The position numbers and the translations under genes were made by a program. 64,000 bases of DNA from Rhododendron vialii (lineage: Eukaryota > Streptophyta > Magnoliopsida > Ericales > Ericaceae), in assembly GCF_030253575.1 (NCBI RefSeq), contig NC_080558.1, forward strand, positions 40,079,111 to 40,143,110, in the 5' to 3' direction. The notes below the pieces were generated by a model. It worked only from the letters and a program-made list of their open reading frames with translations. It was not told the DNA's origin and ran no database searches. Positions 31,841 through 60,180 of the stretch are shown piece by piece (the stretch's first letter is position 1; every line of letters begins with the position of its first letter).

Positions 31841-31913
31841 GATCGCGTGGCCTAATGGATAAGGCGCTCGCCTCCGGAGCGGGAGATTGTGGGTTCGAGT
31901 CCCACCGTGATCG
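31841..31913 (+). tRNA. tRNA-Arg (anticodon CCG)
   Basis: A 73-nt cloverleaf without intron. The acceptor arm gatcgcg pairs with cgtgatc (one G-T pair), the D arm is gcc...ggc, the anticodon stem ctcgc/gcggg encloses the loop ctccgga with anticodon CCG reading CGG (Arg), and the T arm gtggg-ttcgagt-cccac is perfect. The A-box (tggcctaatgg) and B-box (ggttcgagtcc) promoters are intact, and a T-rich run downstream can stop Pol III. It looks functional. Confidence 0.96.
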
Positions 31914-49319: not shown

Positions 49320-52300
49320 TTACTTCCCTATGAGCTTATAGTATGCATACAAGCCCGAACCAATAAAACCAAGCAACTGCCCCAAAACATTCAACTGCAA
49401 GGTAAACCAATCAAACTATCTCTTAAGAGCAACACTCGAAAACAGAGTTCAAAGTGATAAAAACGAAAAGTCCAGATAACAGTGCCATTTAGAGATACAG
49501 AAAGTGAAGTTCACACTCACAAAGTCAAATGGAAGCCCACCGAACAACATCCAGCCAAGTCCAATGGTGAAAAGATCCTACAGCAATAACAACAACAACA
49601 AAAAAAAAGGAACTGAGCGTTTGTTGGACTTTGAAAAGCAAGGATTATAAGGACCTATATCGAACAAGAAAATAAATGAACTCCAGGAACCGTGCCACTC
49701 AGAGATTTCTTTTACATCCTTAGCCATCTTACTGCACAGCTTCGCCCAATCAAATCAATCAAACTTCAAACCAATTTCACAAAATCAAGCCACCTCTCAC
49801 TCAATTCCCTACATATTGTCCAAACTTCACTTCTTCTTCTTTTGTTGAAAAAGAAGTTTCCCAGTTTAACCAAAGTGGTGAACAGCTAAACAAGTTTTAT
49901 AGGGTGACCCTAATTGACTACTTTAAACCCTTCCCTTCATTGGCTTATCTATCACAAACCTAAAAGCATGGCAACAAAAAAGCAGTATTTCGGTTTTCTT
50001 TGTATTTTGTAGCCCTTTTCAAATTCTTGGTTAACTTTGGCAAGCAATCCTCTGAGTGTCCACATGCACACTGTGAGTTTCACCGTATTGCATAAGACAA
50101 TCCATTTATCTTCTCATTCCAAATTTCCAATTGTAGAGCATCTCATTTCAGGTCAAATAGCTCTAGCATTCTTGGAGCAGTGTCACTTGTTTAGGTTGAA
50201 AATGATCTAGTTGCATATTCCGTAGGGTAATATTACCACATTAATGTGCAAGTTTGTCAAGACTTTGGTCACATTTGGGAAAATTGTGCATGCCATAAGG
50301 AAAAGCCGCGGGTAAACAAACCTTCAAGTTGCCACAAATGGTCTGCGTGAGTGCTGAATTGAGAGTTGTGTTCAGGAATATACTATAATTCAAGAAGAAG
50401 GCCAGTATGCAGGATAGAAGCAACACAACCTGCAATTGACGATACAGAAATAAATCAGCAAAAGCATTACCTTTAGTTACAGCATCATTGTAATAACTAA
50501 GATAGAAACAAGTGCATAAAAATACAAGCACCCACAAGGAATGAATAACTACAGTTTTGAGTTACACATAATTTAGGCATAAAAGATGGAAAGATTACCT
50601 GAACTTCTAGTAGAATATCACTCGTCAATGATTGATGACTAAACAAATGAAAACAAAAAAACTAGAACTGTCCGATGAATTTGCAAATCTGGAAAAAGTC
50701 AAAACACTTTAATTTTTCAATGCAATTGCAAAGGTTTATACTTGTTTCCTTTAAAATAGGTTCTACAAAATGAAAAAGGACTATGCATTGACTTCGGAGA
50801 AACAAGATTACTTCTCGGATTTCAACTATCTGCCATCACTATAGTCATGATTCTAGAGTCAATGATGTTGGAATGACTGGCTGTCAATATCGGATGGATG
50901 TGGTCGAGATTCGAGGAAGGCGTTCAAGTTTTGGTTTGGGTCCGCAAGTTGCCCAGTTGTCAATATCAGATGGATGTGGTCGAGATTCGAGGAAGGCGTT
51001 CAAGTTTTGGTTTGGGTCCGCAAGTTGCCCGGTTGTCAATATCGGATGGATGTGGTCGAGATTCGAGGAAGGCGTTCAAGTTTTGGTTTTGGTCCGCAAG
51101 TTGCTTGCAGTCAAGAATGTGTTCAAGGAACAAGTAGGTTGTGATGAGAGTATCATACAGAGAGAACAAGATGAAGGAAGAAGAAATAAGATAGACCTGG
51201 TGAATACATAAACCACATGATCTAAGCTAAAACTGAAGATGTGAAAACATATGCTCAACTCATCGCATTAGACATTGATAGGGAACGAAAACGTTATTGA
51301 ACAAACTTAAAGACAGTTCCCTCCGTCATCACATTAGACATTGATAGGGAACGAAAATGTTATTGAACAAACTTAAGGACGGTTCCCTCCGCAATTGTCA
51401 GGAACTTTAGGGACCTATGAAGCACCCAAACTCCTAGAGGTCAGCGTGTCCCTGTTTCGAACACAAGGACTCGGGGACACGGCAAGACATGCTATGTGAC
51501 ATGTCCATTAAATTTAACTAATCTTTTTAGGGGACAAGGTGGGGACATGGGAGGGACACGTATAGGGACACGGCGGGGGTTAAATATATTGAGTTTGGAT
51601 ACCGCAAACTAATTCACTTCTAATGAATACTCTCACTCGTACACAATACAAGGTTACACGAGTACTCACTCAATCACACACAAAACACCTCTCACTTACA
51701 TTTGAGAGCCTTCTTCACTCATACTTACACACTCACTCACTCACACCTTGAGCGTTTCTGACGCAGCGGAATTCACAAAGAGACTAGTTAGCGTACTAAT
51801 CCAAACGAGATAAACAACTCGTCGCAACGAGCAAATCTTGCGCACAAGAAAGAAAGAGAAAATCTCTGCAATATTATTAATCAAAAGCTACATAAACCCT
51901 AAGTTACAAACCTTTATATAGGCCGAAACTCTAGAAACCCTAAAAATAAACTTGGAAATTAAAAAGTCCCAGAATTTGGGGCTTTTCCTAAAATTGAAAA
52001 CGGGAAAGAAAAACAAGACTTTCCCAAAAAGAATCAACTTAAAAGGAATTACGATCTAAGAGTTATTAACGAAACAAATCTTTCCTAAAACGGCAAAATA
52101 ACGCAATAGAAAGCCTAAACGAATGAATCGGGCCGAAAAACACCATTCATCATCAACCTTTACGGTTAATGAGTATCGACTGGAGCGCGAAAATAAGTCA
52201 GCCCACCAAGTTTGGGCCTATTCTGAGCTCGTCCGAATTTAGCCGATTTGGGTAATCTGAAATTAAACACCGTTTAGACTTCCGGGGTTTGGCTCGGTCC

Positions 52301-55300
52301 AGCTGATCATGGAATTGGGCCTCCACGTGTTCTACATCAGTTTCTCTCGCGCACTCTAACCAAGTGGGCTCTCATCTCCTATTTATACGGAGCCTCGGAA
52401 GTTTCAAGGCAAGAACATCTCTAGACTAGTTTTAGAAGTTTCCAGAGAAACACTGAAGACTCCATCACAATGTCGAGGATTCTGGAAGATTCAGGAAGGT
52501 TCCAGCATGCCCCGGAACACTCCAGAGAAGTCCGGACGAGTCCGGAATATTCTAGTGAATTCTAGAGAAACCTGGAACATTTCTGGAATACTTCAGTGTC
52601 TGTGTCTAGATGTACAATTTCATGGCCAAACATATAATCAGGTCACAGTTTTCTAGACTCAAATCAAACAGATGAATAACCTGGTGCATATCTTTCTTTA
52701 GTTACCGATGCAACATGAAGTAATCAGATTTAAGACCATACAAAACTTCAGATCTACAGAGAAAATCTGAAAGGAAATGCAAAGGGTAGTCAACGACGAA
52801 AAATGCTAGTACAATTTTGAAATAGATAAAGAATAACCAATTTGCAGGCACATATAGAACTCTAATGCGGCAAGAAGTACAGGTCAATTATGAACTTTAC
52901 AAAGCTTCAAGTGATTGATTAGAAAAAGAGGTGCAGAAGGTAAATAAGGATATAGAATGCTAGTATACTCATTAATGAAATTATCAAGCAAAATATAATG
53001 TCTCCCCTTGTTGAAAATCTGCATGATATAGGGCGCAATTCTATGTTTTTCATTTTTGATAAGTGAGACGTGAAACTGATGTCAGAGCCTCTTGCCCACA
53101 AGGAACAATATGCCGATTATCCTAGTCAAGTTAGCAAATGAGCATAGAACTCTCGTATGCAAACTATGAAACTCCTACTGAAGATCACAAATTACCAGAA
53201 ACCCAGGTGAAAACAAATATGGAAAATTCAATGTCAACTCCAAGTCACCCCTGATAAATGTCCAGAACAGTAAAAACGGCCCGCATATTATTCCTGTATC
53301 AGAAAGTAAAATGGTATTATCTTATAGTTCATGAGTTAGAATCATACTAAGATGTTTTGAAAGAGAAGATAATCAAGTCCACATGACATTCTTTTGTTTC
53401 AGCTCTTTTTTTTTTTTTTTTGGTACATTTTGTTTCAGCTCTGGTAACATACCATTGCACCACATAAGTCCAAAGCTATTGAGGCCGCTAGATTTACCTG
53501 CGAAAAATGAAAGTATCAACAGTGAAAAGGAGGACCATCAAGCTACTGAAAAGGGTCTTCCAAACAGAAGAAGTATTACCTATGCGGGCTATGGTTGCCA
53601 GATATATTGCAGTAGTAATGTTGGCTAAGAAAACAACAGCATAGCCATAGGAATCAAATGATAAGTCTCGAGCTCCCGCAATAAATGCACCAAGAACGAT
53701 CAATGCCACACTGATATCACCTTAACGTTTTGGTTACATGGAGGAATTAGAATCATAACAATTTAAACGATAGCAACATGACTTCATGTGAAAAAGAAAA
53801 CGTCAATCACAACTTTAATTATCAAAGCCAAAGATGCTATGCACCATGATTAACTGTAATGGAGGAATTAGGGACATTATAACCCAAGCAAGTTTTCATA
53901 ACAATGGGGGTAAAAAGGAAGATAACTTGTCAAGTGATCCAAAACTAACCTGCTAGGCACTCGATTGACTATTTAAAGTACCAAAAGCTAAAAAGGTTCA
54001 CAATTCATAGGAAAATGGTCCTAGATGTGAGAGTAACTGGGAAAAACTCAAAGATGTGTCAATTCCAAGGGGGACTCACACAAGATAGTTGGAACTTGGA
54101 ACCCACCAACCAAATGGGTATTGTAGTGGGCCGAATATTTTGGTTCAGTCAGACTCAATACACTCGGCAGAAGGCCATGCTTAGTCCTTCGATTCTGTCT
54201 AATCAAATCAAGTCGAGCATCGGACTTTTAGGTTCGGATGCCAGAATTGGCGGTGGAAAAGTTCGGATATGAAGTATCCAACTGCCGAACTATACTAGGG
54301 TCAACACTCTACTCCTCAAGGTTTGTGCTTTTAGGTTCAGTGGACTCGCACAGGCCAACTCATCCACGTGAGCCTAACCGCCTTGCTCCCTACGCCAGCT
54401 ATGACATCACCTGGAGCGGCTAGGGCACGAGATGGGCACGAACGCACATGGGTGACAACTCATGCACATGCACGATAACGCCCTTATCCGGTAAGTCAAG
54501 CATGACGTCAGCCGGGGCAGTTTTTGAGCGTGTGAGGCATGCGCTGGATTGGAAGGCAAGCCAAGGAGGTCTATATAAAGGCAAGGATGAAACCCTAGAA
54601 CGGTACGCAATCTTCACCTCTCTAAACCCTAGTGCTTCTTCCTCCTACACTTTCTAACTAGATCGTTGGAGGGCCTTTTCGGTCTCCGACCGGTCTGGCC
54701 CTTAGTTGCACAATGCTTGTGGAGATCAAGCAAAAGGCTAGGCGAACCCATCCATCCGAACCAGAGGCTCAGGTGAGGTTAACCGATCTTGATCGATAAC
54801 CCCACAGGTATCAATGAAGGTTATACCAGAGTCACTTTCAAGATATTTGGGTTTAGGTATTGCCAGACAATCATTTGTTGCTTGTTTTTTGGTTGTTTCT
54901 TTGATACATTAAAGAGAGAGTATAATGCATGTAATTTACAACGTATCAGAAGATGCCAACGTACATGATTTCCATAAATGTACAAGATAACTGAGCCTCT
55001 CATTTGACTTGTCCTCGGTTCACCTTTATAGTATTGCACTCAGTCTTTAATTGATAACAGTGTCTTCTCGGTAGATCTGTGTTTGCAAATTTACCCAACC
55101 CATCCTCGGTGGGTAGGGCTAGGTTCCTCGTTCCTCGAATAAGATAAACATTACTCTAGCTGTAAAACCACATATTTTTCACCGGTAGACTACTTTATGG
55201 GCATATTTACCATATAGCCCTGCGTGCAGACGTAGTAGTCAAGAAGAGAGACATGATAGTAGCGGATAGTCGGGCAAGGGGAAAAGGAAGACCTAAACTG

Positions 55301-58300
55301 ACTTTGGATACCACGATACGGAAGGACTTGGGCTTACTATATCTAAGTGAAGAGGTAGCTCTAGACAGAGCTAAATGGAAAAATAGGATTCATGCAGCTG
55401 ACCCCAATTGATTGGGACACAAGGCTTAGTTTGGTTTGGTTTGAGACTACTTTATGGACATTGCACCAATATGTTTCGTGTTTTAGGTAAATATTTCCAT
55501 CTCCAACAAAAGTATCATTATACACTGACCTTTAACATATCATAGCTTGGTTATGTAAAGGCAAAAACAACAAAATTGCACGTACATGAATATTTGTCCA
55601 TGGAATAGTGTTGAAAAGAAGCTATAGTTATGCTTAAAGACAACGATGGTCTCAACTCTCGTTGGATTTTGTTACGTTTGAAAAGCATAGTTCAAATGAG
55701 ACAAGCTTTTAGCATATGATAGTACACTCCCTGATGCCACGACATATGAGGCTATGACGACAAGACCTTTTCGGCCAGCCGATCTGAATTGGCTCTCTGT
55801 CCTATCCTTCTACAAGGTAAAAGTCAGGGTCTGCAAATCCTCTTAGTCATTAACAAGAAGATCTAGCAAATTATTTGGAAGGAAAACAAAAAGGGCCCTG
55901 AACATGCATATGTAAGTCCTTGCATTGTATTGAAAAGTAATTCATCATCCAAACTTCGTGGGGATTAGCTTGGAGAGAGGCTCATATTTATAGACCTTGA
56001 CTAGAGGTTCGATGGGAATCATTTGAGGTGAGGTTCAAGAAGAAATCCTTGAGCCACAATCTAAAGGAAGTTAACTACAATGGTAAGTGTAAGTATAAAT
56101 CCTTTTCATAATCCTGAAATTATGTTTACTACTCATATTCAGCTCTCCAGAACAACCAATCAAGTGCATTCACAAAATTAACAGTACAAAAACCTTCATT
56201 GAGCACAGTTTAGAGACGGAGTCAAATAACATTTTGCATTTAAATTGCTTGAATTAAATCTTCAGCATCTTCTGATGACCAACAGGATATACACTTGGAG
56301 AAGGAGGAGTTATAAAGGCCAGTTTACCTTCCAACAACAGAAGACGTGTACTTCTGCCCTGCCAAGACAGCCTCAACAACCATTGCGAATACCACGGTTG
56401 TCCTCCTGAGGGTGGTGTACATGGGTACGTTTACTCCGCGGACAGACTCCATGGTAGCTAGCTTTCAAGGATGAAGAAAACATATCGGTAGCTATAAATT
56501 ACTTACAACCAGATTGGCAACTCAAAAATCCACCAAAAGAAAAGCTTATATGGTGAACTATGTGGACTTTGTACCATATAAAGCAAATAAGTCACTGCAA
56601 GGGGTAGGGTATGGATCAATGTCTTCAATGGAACAAATGTTGTGGACTTGTCACTGATACTCAAGGATTCACCCCCGCCGAAGGAGATAAGCTTCCAGCG
56701 TCTTAATGCAAAAAGAAAAGCACATGAGCATATCATCTGCAGCAACAGGTCAGAACACATGTTAACATAGACCATCACATTCGCAAGGGTCCATCCTGAT
56801 CAGTGGAAATAAGATGCTGTAGTAAAAAAAGACAAAAACTTAAGGAACAAATACAGAAGACCAATAAAAAAAACTGAAGGCTCGAGATTGCAAAATTATG
56901 AAAAGCTAAAGGTTTAGTGGTGAAGGATCTATTGCTTAGTCAGAAGAAGCATATTCACCTACTAGAAAACAAAAAAGATGAGTCAAACAGTGGTGGTTTG
57001 CTTAGAAACTAATATTATGTGTATCAAAAATACTTGTATCAACATGTCAGCACAATAAGTGGACAAATATTCAATAGGTATTGAGTTAGAAAACAACAAC
57101 TGTGAGAATATGAGAGCAGCAACTTCTGAAAATCGCATTCATTGCCTTCCTACCTGGAGGAGAGTGATGACATTGGCACTTGGGAAGCTATATGAAGAAA
57201 GAGCTGCTTTGTTGAACAAAACCAACAGCACTGCAAATGGAAAAGGGGTCATAACATAATGAAGACAAAAGAGGAAACATCAAGAGTAAAGGAATAACAA
57301 TAAGGCTTAAGCATAAACGATATGCTGAATTAAGGAAAGCAAGTTTTCTTAGGGGTGGGGGCATCGATGATTGACCTAACTGAGTTTCTATCAAATGAAA
57401 GATCTACCTCAAAATTTATCATGGATTAATAATCATACCAATCCCTCCAAAAATTCTTTTACTTGCAAATCAAGCTCATGTCAGTTAACCTACAAGCATA
57501 TAAGAGAAATCATGCATCTAGAATCTTAAGCACATTAACTGTATCGCATTCAAGTGCTTTCTTGATGCAAGCTAACTTGATGTATCCCAGTAGGTAGCAG
57601 ACTAGCAGGTCTCTAGGGTTTCAAGTCCAGTAGACAGCAATACGATTCTCCCAAAAGCAGGAGGGTGAGGAATGAAGGCCAGGTGCAATGCCGACAATTA
57701 ACCACCAAAAGCCCACATTCCACGAAAGAAAATGTGAAACATTAAAGCCATACTCGCATCTGTCATAATGAGAAATTACAGAATTTGTACAACGGATCAA
57801 GCTAATTGGACCACTGGAATTAGCAAAACCATTTATACAAGTACAGCCAATGTTGCTTTGAATCGTAGCCCGGGAGTGGAGAGTGAAGTTGAAATGACAT
57901 TAGCAAAACCTAGGAAACTAAAAGTATTTTCATTTCTAAATGATATGGTAGAGCCTACAAGTTCTTTCGGCCATCAAGATTGGGTGATCCACCTCCATGT
58001 CGAGCACTGGATTGGCCTGGAGCATCACATGCTTAGCACACACATAGTGCACCATAGAAACATTGCAATCTTAGCACCTACATCAGTCCAACATGTTTAT
58101 CAGCTGAGAGAAACTTCATTTTATTATTCTCTTGGCTAGATATTCATTTATTCGCCTTTCCTAGTGCATTTCTCCTTCTCTGAGCAAAGGAAACTCTACT
58201 TAAATTAAGCTAGGAGTTCATAGATTTTCGCGACAATTCCTGATAGAAGGTCCAAAAGGAGTGCACTTACGCTACCAGTTAAGATTGGTCATGGTAGAGA

Positions 58301-59986
58301 TAGAGGCAAGTGTAAAAGTTTGTAACCACAGCAAACCTCATCGCAACTGCAATGGCAGATAGCACAAATTGAAAACTGTGATAGATCAAAGAGAGCACAA
58401 GGCTAAATTGTGATCAGTGATCTAATGATCCATGTGAACCATTCGACGTTTTTAGACATTTTTACACTGGCAGTGCCAACTTATTCACAGGGTTACGACA
58501 ACTTTGTAACTGGTAACCTTGCTTCCTTAGTTCATACCCATATCAGTCCATCACAAAAGAAATACTCCCTGATATTTACAACTTTCAAGATACTAAACGG
58601 GCACCAAGATCAAGGGAAAAGTGTAAGCAGGGAGGTGACTTCTTGAACGAATTATTACATATAAAGCAACAAATAAACACATGACATGTAGAAGATTATC
58701 TCAATCTTCTAATGCTTAGAAAGCAATAAGGTATAATCAGATTGAATACATGATTTGATTTTCTTAGAGTACGAGCAAAACACAGGATATGTACTCCCTA
58801 GAAGTAGAGGTGCAAACCGGACTGCTCCTAAAATCCTTGAAGATTTGAGAGAACACAGCACTAAGCAAAAAACCTTCACCGGTGAATTTTAAATTGCCAT
58901 TTCAGCTTTTGTGTAAATGTGTACAGTGATGATTTTCTCTTAGATGCGCCTTTCAAATAGACACTGGAAGCAACAACTGATAAGCTCCACACATTTGAAT
59001 ATAAACATCTGAAACAATCACCAGAACCTATTCCAACATTTCATGTTCTGTTCTTCAAAAACCTAATTCTATGAATCAAACAACCATTTGCTAAGACAAT
59101 CAGTAAGGTATAATCTGATTGAATACATGATTTGATTTTCTTAGAGTAGGAGCAAAACACAGGATTTGCACATACTAGAGAGTAGAGGTCCAAACCGGAC
59201 TGCTCCTAAAAGATTTGACAGAACACAGCACTAAGCCAAAAACCTTCACCGGTGAACTTTAAATTATTATTTCAACTTCCGTGCAAATGTGAGAAGTGTG
59301 AAGATTTGCTCTTTGCTGCACCTTTGGACGGAACAACTGATAAGCTCCACATATATGTCGGTGAATGAAAACATCTAAAACCGTCACCTACTAGTAAAAC
59401 AAGGCGCCAAACCAATACCCTGCTATACCGTCAACATCGAACAAAAACTACTCCAACATAACATATTCTGATATTAAAAAACCTAATTCTATGGATCAAA
59501 TAATCATTCCCTAAGACATTCATAAATCCGATTCACAGATATAGTCCTCCAATTAGTCACATAATCCTTCATCACGCCCATGCGCTCTCAATTCTCGCTC
59601 TTGCACGTTTTACTAGCTCGGGATGTTTTTGTTTTGCAAGGCGCTTTCACACTCACTCTCGCGCTCCCGCACGCACATTATGTGACTTCGGTCCTCCATA
59701 AGAAGCCAAACAATTCTCAGACGAATCGATCAGGAAACAAGCAATTAAAGAAAACTCGAATAACTGGTTCAAATCACGAAACACAGGCACATCAAAAATC
59801 TACCCAAGAAAATCAACGTAGTTTCCACTCTCATAATCGATATGGTTTTAGGTTCGTACCAGCGCAAGACATGTAAGATATGGCGGCGTAAGCACCTCGC
59901 TTAGTCATTCCAGATCCTTTGAAGAGCCTCTCGTCTCCTCCTCCTCCTTTTGAGGGATCTGATACAGGTAATTCCATCTTGTTCAT
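49320..59986 (-). CDS. UGNT1: UDP-N-acetylglucosamine transporter, UGNT1-like (ten exons, 337 aa)
   Basis: A multi-pass nucleotide-sugar transporter of the DMT/KT family; Arabidopsis UGNT1 moves UDP-GlcNAc into the Golgi for N-glycans and sphingolipids. Exons on the reverse strand: 59986-59860, 57230-57154, 56736-56575, 56461-56328, 53710-53580, 53497-53453, 53293-53196, 50429-50322, 49577-49521, 49394-49320. All junctions are GT-AG, phases agree and the total is 1014 nt. The protein begins MNKMELPVSD, has MTKRGAYAA, then LVLFNKAALSSY, FVPLKTLIHTLPL, SVRGVNVPMYTTLRRTT, LGAFIAGARDLSFDSYGYA, SSGLNSFGLMWCNG, LNTTLNSALTQTICGNLKD and ends AYYKLIGK. Introns 1, 4 and 7 are each 2.6-2.8 kb and hold TEs. 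The second Met (59977) is an alternative start. No defect was found. Confidence 0.96.
50882..51108. repeat. Tandem repeat, 76-bp unit, three copies (UGNT1-like intron 7)
   Basis: Units start at 50882, 50958 and 51034 with tgtcaatatc(g/a)gatggatg and contain tcgaggaaggcgttcaagtt. Copies differ at only a few bases; the last is slightly shorter. Confidence 0.95.
51261..51392. repeat. Tandem repeat, 66-bp unit, two copies (UGNT1-like intron 7)
   Basis: Units start at 51261 and 51327 with cat.c.cattagacattgat and contain gggaacgaaaa.gttattga and acagttccctccg-like sequence. Confidence 0.93.
51759..52339 (-). mobile_element. Solo LTR (581 bp), TSD gtttc, nested
   Basis: The element reads TGATGTAGAACACGTGG... 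to ...CCGCTGCGTCA on the reverse strand. The 5-bp direct repeat gtttc occurs at 51754-51758 and 52340-52344 on the given strand. Inside is a TATA box (CCTATATAAAGG, near 51920 on the reverse strand) followed by a leader-like stretch, as in an LTR promoter. No internal retroelement domain is present, so it is a solo LTR. Confidence 0.86.
52430..52605 (-). promoter_or_regulatory. Heat-shock element array in LTR
   Basis: Alternating TTC/GAA units with 2-bp spacing are dense here. The best cluster (52480-52502) has five perfect alternating units (TTCnnGAAnnTTCnnGAAnnTTC). Others: GAAGTTTCCAGAG near 52435, GAATATTCTAG near 52544, and TTCTGGAATACTTC near 52581. Three or more alternating nGAAn units are the binding requirement for heat-shock factors. 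A TATAAATAG box lies about 45-100 bp downstream on the reverse strand. Confidence 0.7.
53407..53427. mobile_element. Minimal poly(A) retro-insertion with 15-bp TSD
   Basis: ttttgtttcagctct occurs at 53392-53406 and 53428-53442; between them is only a T run plus ggtaca. It lies in intron 6 of the UGNT1-like gene, about 10 bp from the exon 6 donor. Confidence 0.7.
54122..54806 (+). mobile_element. Solo LTR (685 bp), TSD ggtat, in UGNT1-like intron 4
   Basis: The 5-bp repeat ggtat occurs at 54117-54121 and 54807-54811. The LTR starts TGTAGTGGGCC and ends AACCCCACA. A TATA box (gtctatataaaggc, near 54571) is followed by an aaaccctag..ctctctaaaccctag leader. No internal domain on either side. It is antisense to the host gene. 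Confidence 0.9.
55240..55445 (+). mobile_element. LINE (RTE-like) 3' end fragment
   Basis: The + strand frame reads RGKGRPKLTLDTTIRKDLGL, then SEEVALDRAKWKNRIHAADPN and a stop: the conserved C-terminal tail of plant RTE/L1-type ORF2 proteins. It is followed by ttgattgggacacaaggctt and a (ttggt)n tail (55427-55441). Only the last part of ORF2 remains. It lies in UGNT1-like intron 4, antisense to the gene. Confidence 0.82.
58725..59525. repeat. Tandem segmental duplication (about 380 and 420 bp) in UGNT1-like intron 1
   Basis: Unit 1 (58725-59103) and unit 2 (59104-59525) share aaggtataatc.gattgaat, gaacacagcactaag, aaaccttcaccggtgaa, acaactgataagctccaca and aaaacctaattctatg. Copies are diverged by scattered substitutions and small indels, so the duplication is not recent. 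Confidence 0.9.
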
Positions 59987-60180
59987 CGATGAACTCGACG
60001 CCATCTACAGATCTTTTCAAATCTCTCTCTAAAAGACAAATTTCTCTCTCTTGACTGGGTATGTAGTGTTGTGGTCGGAGACTCGGAGTGTTCAAAGATG
60101 GGCAGGCCAGGCAGGCGGGGTGGTATCTGGTACAGGACGGGGAAGATGCTCTCTCAGCCGGTCGCAAGCGTCTTCGGTTA
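59987..60180 (-). promoter_or_regulatory. 5' leader region of the UGNT1-like gene
   Basis: The first ATG of the transporter is at 59986. Upstream on the reverse strand an ATG at 60167 opens an 88-codon frame (ending 59901) that overlaps the transporter start in another frame; if the transcript begins upstream of 60167 this would act as an upstream ORF. Leader is GA/CT-rich. Confidence 0.35.

Follow-up and report, generated by a model that had tools for sequence, protein, structure and literature searches.

The window analyzed here, that is, the whole stretch of 64,000 bases from Rhododendron vialii (contig NC_080558.1, positions 40,079,111 to 40,143,110), carries a gene resembling the nucleotide-sugar transporter UGNT1, and one intron of this gene holds a long terminal repeat (LTR) with a dense array of heat-shock elements (HSEs), which is the subject of the present report. 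The coding span of the UGNT1-like gene extends from 49320 to 60004 on the reverse strand, to which the features of the transposable elements described below also belong unless otherwise indicated, and it comprises 10 exons with GT-AG borders throughout and an uninterrupted open reading frame (ORF) of 343 amino acids. The protein matches Pfam TPT (E=6e-13) and, among the 120 of 901 protein matches listed, the two top-scoring relatives belong to Rhododendron molle (92% identity) and R. simsii (84% identity); another listed relative with 92% identity is an unnamed protein on a short contig. Several of the listed relatives are named UDP-N-acetylglucosamine transporter UGNT1, and many are annotated as sugar phosphate transporter or hypothetical protein. 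Useful matches came neither from Pfam, queried with three single exon frames, nor from PDB, queried with two joined exon pieces. Intron 7 (50430..53195, 2766 bp), which lies between the end of exon 7 at 53196 and the start of exon 8 at 50429, hosts a composite of the LTR and a miniature inverted-repeat transposable element (MITE), with the HSE-bearing element sense to the gene. This location had been proposed in the original prediction, and both the exon chain and the names of the relatives agree with it. The same intron contains two short tandem arrays, one of three copies at 76 bp spacing (50874-51104) and one of two copies at 66 bp spacing (51260-51391).

Scanning for perfect alternating TTC/GAA units spaced five bases revealed a five-unit perfect HSE, GAACCTTCCTGAATCTTCCAGAA, at 52480..52502, which is the sole perfect HSE of at least three units in the window. 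The surrounding 253 bp (52380-52632) contain 24 TTC/GAA trinucleotides, a number reached by 1 of 2000 dinucleotide shuffles, and 8 adjacent TTC/GAA pairs with a longest run of 5 units, neither of which was reached in any of the 2000. The 8 pairs span 52398..52588, and four of them are inside the five-unit site. The TATA box TATAAATAG (52379..52387) begins at 52387, 93 bp downstream of the five-unit HSE, and the usual TATA spacing would place a transcription start near 52355. The HSE array is thus real, and the five perfect units, the unusual density of the array and the TATA box following it are all present as originally predicted. In a 260-bp stretch of this LTR, 7 CpG were counted.

The recognisable LTR consists of two parts. 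The first (52340..52591) comprises the U3 (unique 3') region with the HSE array, the TATA box and the predicted start region, and is 66-79% identical to its relatives. The second (51587..51753, ending ...CCAAACTCAATA) is the remainder, which is continuous with the first in the un-nested relative L004. The relatives possess TG...CA termini with short inverted ends (TGTTGAG...CTCAACA). In the window copy only the right end can be recognised, where it reads CTCAATA, and it was placed at 51587 because those relatives with a readable 3' end extend to CTCAACA or a near variant. The LTR had initially been delimited as TGTTTGG...CCAAACTCA, yet CCAAACTCA is internal to the LTR, the true end lies at 51587, and 172 bp of MITE sequence follow it. 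As for the claimed start, the left 41 bp (52592..52632) were compared with the LTR starts of six relatives and are not recognisable as such a start: for five of them the similarity was no better than that of shuffles (108-554 of 1000 reached the score), L003 being marginally closer (3 of 1000). These 41 bp probably represent a truncation or replacement. Owing to the false ends and the unrecognisable left 41 bp, the designation as a solo LTR is better replaced by that of a 5'-truncated LTR fragment within a MITE fragment; what stands of the original description is a strong HSE array in a promoter of LTR type.

The two parts are separated by a nested solo LTR of 581 bp (51759..52339, TGATGTAG...GCGTCA), which has the same orientation as the gene and is flanked by the target site duplication (TSD) GAAAC at 52340..52344 and 51754..51758, so that the predicted nesting holds. 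A genome search yielded 39 other matches at 92-98% identity among the best 40 of 803 candidates, and identity to the 7 loci compared was 97.1-97.6%. Several of these relatives are found on a common strand at a distance of about 5.17 kb, a layout like that of full-length elements, and AGTGGTATCAGAGC directly follows the LTR at L014 and L017. Since the internal ORF of L014 carries the domains Retrotrans_gag, Ty3_capsid and zf-CCHC, the nested LTR is assigned to Ty3/Gypsy. In its 581-bp length, its GAAAC duplication and its relatives, which form LTR-spaced pairs, one with a gag frame, it resembles Ty3/Gypsy solo LTRs. Its first base lies some 16 bp downstream of where the HSE promoter is predicted to start transcription, and it contains its own TATATAAAGG at 51920, a polyadenylation-like AATAAT at 51878 and no perfect HSE of at least three units.

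Beyond its right end, the HSE-bearing LTR is followed by 172 bp (51415..51586, ending ...GGGTGCTTCATAG) that correspond to the right half of a MITE. This part has 39 other matches among the best 40 of 100 candidates, and 24 of the 39 start exactly at the LTR border. All 11 MITE copies read across the LTR position are continuous there, 10 of them near TTGCATATTTAACC and L072 more diverged, and thus display the empty site. The MITE relatives have terminal repeats CTATGTAGCACGGACAC...GTGTCGGTGCTTCATAG, and among the eight with both ends located an exact 8-bp TSD could be identified by eye in four (L063, L067, L070, and L072), with near-matches in L062, L065, and L071. TSDs of 8 bp point to hAT. 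Since the relatives show terminal repeats and 8-bp TSDs, as hAT-like MITEs do, the outer repeat was classed as a presumable hAT-like MITE, the class being taken from TSD length. Unlike these relatives, the window copy holds an LTR inside and has only its right terminus, its left half not being recognisable. The 300 bp of intron left of 52632 were considered as the missing half and rejected, as 342 of 500 shuffles reached the score.

With regard to the insertion of the LTR into the MITE, the right copy of its 5-bp target site is TATTT at 51582..51586. On the left of the LTR, TATTT is found in L004 and TATTG in L002, so that the filled sites read TATTT, LTR, TCTTT in L004 and TATTG, LTR, TATTT in L002; together with the empty MITE site, these are consistent with duplication of a 5-bp target, TATTT. 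Three further loci show the LTR-in-MITE junction on at least one side: the right junction is common to the window, L002 and L004, the left one is common to L002 and L003, and L004 shares about 25 bp of the latter. The simplest reading of these junctions is that a single LTR insertion into the MITE was followed by copying of the composite, which may have happened through transposition of the MITE or through another kind of duplication. No clean 8-bp TSD was seen around the composite in L002.

In the genome (532.6 Mb in 13 contigs, with the window on contig 2), the HSE region gave, in addition to the window itself, 8 matches elsewhere at 66-79% identity. Relatives used as queries gave 23, 17 and 9 matches, which are partly redundant with one another and contain the queries themselves, the window, split copies and one MITE piece; all family match counts are lower bounds. 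The union of the listed places amounts to about 30, and the family is degenerate, with ends 5' TGTTGAGAGTCATCACC and 3' GTCCAAACTCAACA and variants thereof. The HSE array occurs across the family. Over the window and the 16 loci that reach U3, a run of at least three units is present in 11 of 17 copies and a run of 4 or 5 units in 6, while in 6 of the 17 a run of at least three units begins 130-136 bp from the LTR start, this start being an estimate for L008, L040, and L053. The copies without such a run are L002, L032, L051, L042, L059, and L040. Among the copies counted, L005, L006, and L033 lie within 230 kb on C13, have a common flank and are not independent. L079, which was found through the exact 5' end, has a four-unit run. 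The HSE array was thus inherited within the family, the arrays of the relatives being located at the same place. On C13, the three HSE-bearing LTR copies at 24064814, 24193367, and 24286298, spread over about 220 kb, share the same flank and represent a local segmental duplication.

Candidate 5-bp TSDs were identified by eye for L004 (TATTT/TCTTT), L002 (TATTG/TATTT), L050 (GATTC/GATTT) and L057 (ATTGT/ATCGT). When the genome was searched for the longer 3' end of the family joined exactly to a tRNA-Met primer-binding site (PBS), no match was obtained, and no same-strand family pair 3-20 kb apart was present among the listed places, the nearest being 30 kb apart on C3. Since no full-length parent was found, the LTR nature of the family rests on the termini, the TATA box, the approximate 5-bp TSDs and the comparison of filled and empty MITE sites.

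Two candidates for a parent or a pair of LTRs were rejected. C3:8114964, where the short end is followed by a tRNA-Met PBS match, lacks any adjacent HSE pair, and its match is to a MITE locus alone, over 63 bp, and not to the family. C5:11441801 and 11446571 are 4.8 kb apart and have similar starts and short HSE runs; their similarity continues upstream of the start (385 bp at 77%), and they therefore constitute a duplicated segment and not an LTR pair with these ends. The duplicates of this C5 segment (L076, L077, L081-L084) are 73-77% alike, contain a TGTTGAGAGTCAACACC-like stretch as at the family start together with runs of 3 and 4 HSE units, and do not match the window family beyond about 30 bp. 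Searching with the 5'-end pattern at 2 mismatches gave 112 matches (100 listed) vs 170 for the reversed control, i.e., the signal is swamped by chance, and an exact 5'-end match at C10:34164364 covers only the first ~35 bases of the LTR.

A number of heat-responsive LTRs have been described in Brassicaceae, and they are compared here as presented in the consulted portions of the respective papers. In ONSEN, HSFA2 binds the heat-responsive element (HRE) of the LTR in vitro, and activation depends on HSFA1 factors and drops severely when HSFA2 is missing (PMC3907296). In Brassicaceae LTRs, predicted 3P and 4P HREs correlate with heat induction, with exceptions, and one such LTR drives a neighbouring gene (PMC5059998). 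On the scale of the same study the window site would rank as a 5P fragment (PMC5059998). The likeness to ONSEN/ATCOPIA78, an HSFA2-activated Ty1/Copia element of Arabidopsis, concerns an LTR with a perfect HSE of at least four units and the presumed recruitment of heat-shock factor (HSF) (PMC3907296, PMC5059998). ONSEN has one 4P and one gap site, whereas the window LTR has several HSE pairs. Moreover, unlike ONSEN, the window copy is a fragment in a MITE, split by a nested LTR, from a family in which no full-length copy or coding region was found. We suggest that "ONSEN-like" be understood as a description of presumed working and not of lineage. The 3' LTR of ROMANIAT5-2 at APUM9 of A. thaliana is comparable in being a heat-element LTR with an actual or potential effect on a host gene; it lies upstream of the gene and its reporter is heat-responsive, while the window LTR is intronic and truncated (PMC5059998).

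The explanation that we consider probable is that the HSE-bearing LTR belongs to an old, low-copy, degenerate LTR-type family, and that the intron 7 copy is a degenerate fragment of it in a MITE, with its left end lost and a nested Gypsy LTR, retaining a leftover HSF-binding promoter or enhancer. In its favour are the HSE array as judged against shuffles and against the reversed-pattern control in the genome, the presence of the array across the family, the LTR termini, the MITE copies that are continuous at the LTR position, the recurring LTR-in-MITE junction, the nested LTR with its exact TSD, its 97% relatives and its polyadenylation-like motif, and the Brassicaceae precedent. Under this explanation, an LTR with a dense HSE array in U3 would initially have inserted at TATTT in a hAT-like MITE. 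The composite would subsequently have been present at several loci, and the intron 7 copy would have lost its left end and received the younger Ty3/Gypsy LTR about 16 bp past the predicted start. Upon heat, HSF trimers would bind the five-unit site and recruit RNA polymerase II to the TATA box. A transcript initiated near 52355 would run into the nested LTR within its first 16 nt or so. Most likely it would terminate there or shortly beyond, yielding a short non-coding RNA. Alternatively, the five-unit site may act as a weak intronic enhancer, and DNA methylation may silence the composite. By analogy with the Brassicaceae elements, both HSF binding at the window site and a heat response of the window LTR are plausible. 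The effect on the UGNT1-like gene is likely to be small.

Several observations weigh against this explanation. Among the other copies, half-sites of the HSE pairs are 76.5% identical vs 66.4% for positions elsewhere (11 copies), but columns shifted by one reach 73.5%, which is near the value of the half-sites, and the conservation of TTC/GAA ranks 5th of 29 trinucleotide classes (11 copies). There is consequently no clear sign of selection keeping the array, and we do not claim it. An initial measure against the window, in which 360 of 398 core bases vs 1253 of 1673 other bases were identical, was dropped because it was biased by cores chosen intact in the window. Furthermore, many family copies have no clear TSD. 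The PBS-junction and pair searches, which were not exhaustive, recovered neither a full-length parent nor any full-length element sharing the ends given in the original prediction. Of 16 ONSEN fragments or solo LTRs in A. thaliana, not one possessed a functional HRE or reacted to heat, and predicted HRE strength sometimes mismatches the response, as for ROMANIAT5 of B. rapa (PMC5059998). Some of these points would suit an inert relic, i.e., a fossil array of a once heat-responsive family, now methylated, unbound and without effect on the gene. The age of the family, evident in the 66-79% identity between window and relatives, agrees with such a relic, as do the failure to find an intact copy, the unclear conservation of the HSE bases and the 7 CpG. 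Against it stand the perfection of the five-unit site and the finding that, in Brassicaceae, the strongest induction is seen with predicted 4P sites (PMC5059998). We regard the relic as rather unlikely.

It was originally proposed that the element is an ONSEN-like heat-activated solo LTR, from which heat-induced transcripts read through exons 8-10 or alter the splicing of intron 7. The five-unit HSE and the TATA box in sense orientation speak for this proposal, and new ONSEN insertions may supply alternative start or termination sites, according to the consulted part of that study (PMC12112155). The case for readthrough is nevertheless weakened, since the Gypsy LTR lies about 16 bp past the predicted start. 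Downstream of this start, a loose motif detects only two donor-like sites, located 172 and 44 bp ahead of exon 8, and the translation of exons 8-10 contains a single in-frame ATG, 34 codons before the stop, which limits an in-frame product to 34 codons. As the nested LTR is met at once, and given the scarcity of donor-like sites and the lone ATG, it is unlikely that exons 8-10 give rise to a useful transcript. Since, in addition, the proposed ends are not those of the LTR, we consider the proposal as a whole improbable. A more far-reaching possibility is that several loci, among them intron 7, received the heat-element LTR from the hAT-like MITE as a pre-assembled heat enhancer, which in the intron would still respond to HSF. 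We deem this improbable; if true, heat switches would have been dispersed by a DNA transposon and not by retrotransposition. Finally, TTC and GAA abound in the region, and the array might be attributed to chance in such sequence. This reading was rejected, as the 8 pairs and the run of 5 were absent from every dinucleotide shuffle and the relatives have homologous arrays at the same place.

The occurrence of five-unit HSEs in the rest of the genome was also considered. The pattern GAANNTTCNNGAANNTTCNNGAA has 67 genome occurrences, of which the window site is one, vs 5 for the reversed-pattern control. As counted from the listed occurrences, 12 same-strand pairs of five-unit HSEs lie within 20 kb, including four with a spacing of 9.8-9.9 kb and three with one of 2.0-2.5 kb. 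In one 9.8-kb pair (C13:16788630/16798443; L073 and L074, within 16788100-16798900), the two LTRs agree at 855 of 856 aligned bases and both contain a five-unit HSE; the pair has GACCC on either side, and ATTGGCGCCGTCTGTGGGAA follows the upstream copy. According to the pattern matches, the three further pairs at 9.8-9.9 kb have the same HSE core. No match between L073/L074 and the window family was obtained at E 1e-4, and the group probably forms a young LTR family that bears HSEs and has no relation to that of the window. A second group is defined by the core GAAGCTTCTAGAAACTTCTAGAA, which is exact in 11 of the 67 listed sites, some of them in same-strand pairs 2.0-2.5 kb apart. It includes L075 (C7:18860300-18861000), a piece of a 2.5-kb pair with a CTATATAAAC box near the HSE on the opposite strand, and pairs on C9 at ~14.31 Mb and C10 at ~15.43 Mb.

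These elements are not mentioned in the titles and abstract starts consulted on HSE-bearing LTRs in Rhododendron, or on heat-element LTRs generally, although such a negative does not prove absence. In the work consulted, heat-element LTRs are Copia families of Brassicaceae (PMC5059998). Rhododendron, a distant plant, has an old LTR family with a dense array as well as many other five-unit HSEs, some of them in pairs with LTR-like spacing. If these LTRs are heat-responsive, recurrent gain of HSEs by LTRs would constitute a wider rule. Apart from the elements described above, a tRNA gene on the forward strand (31841-31913) is the sole Rfam match over the gathering score in the window.

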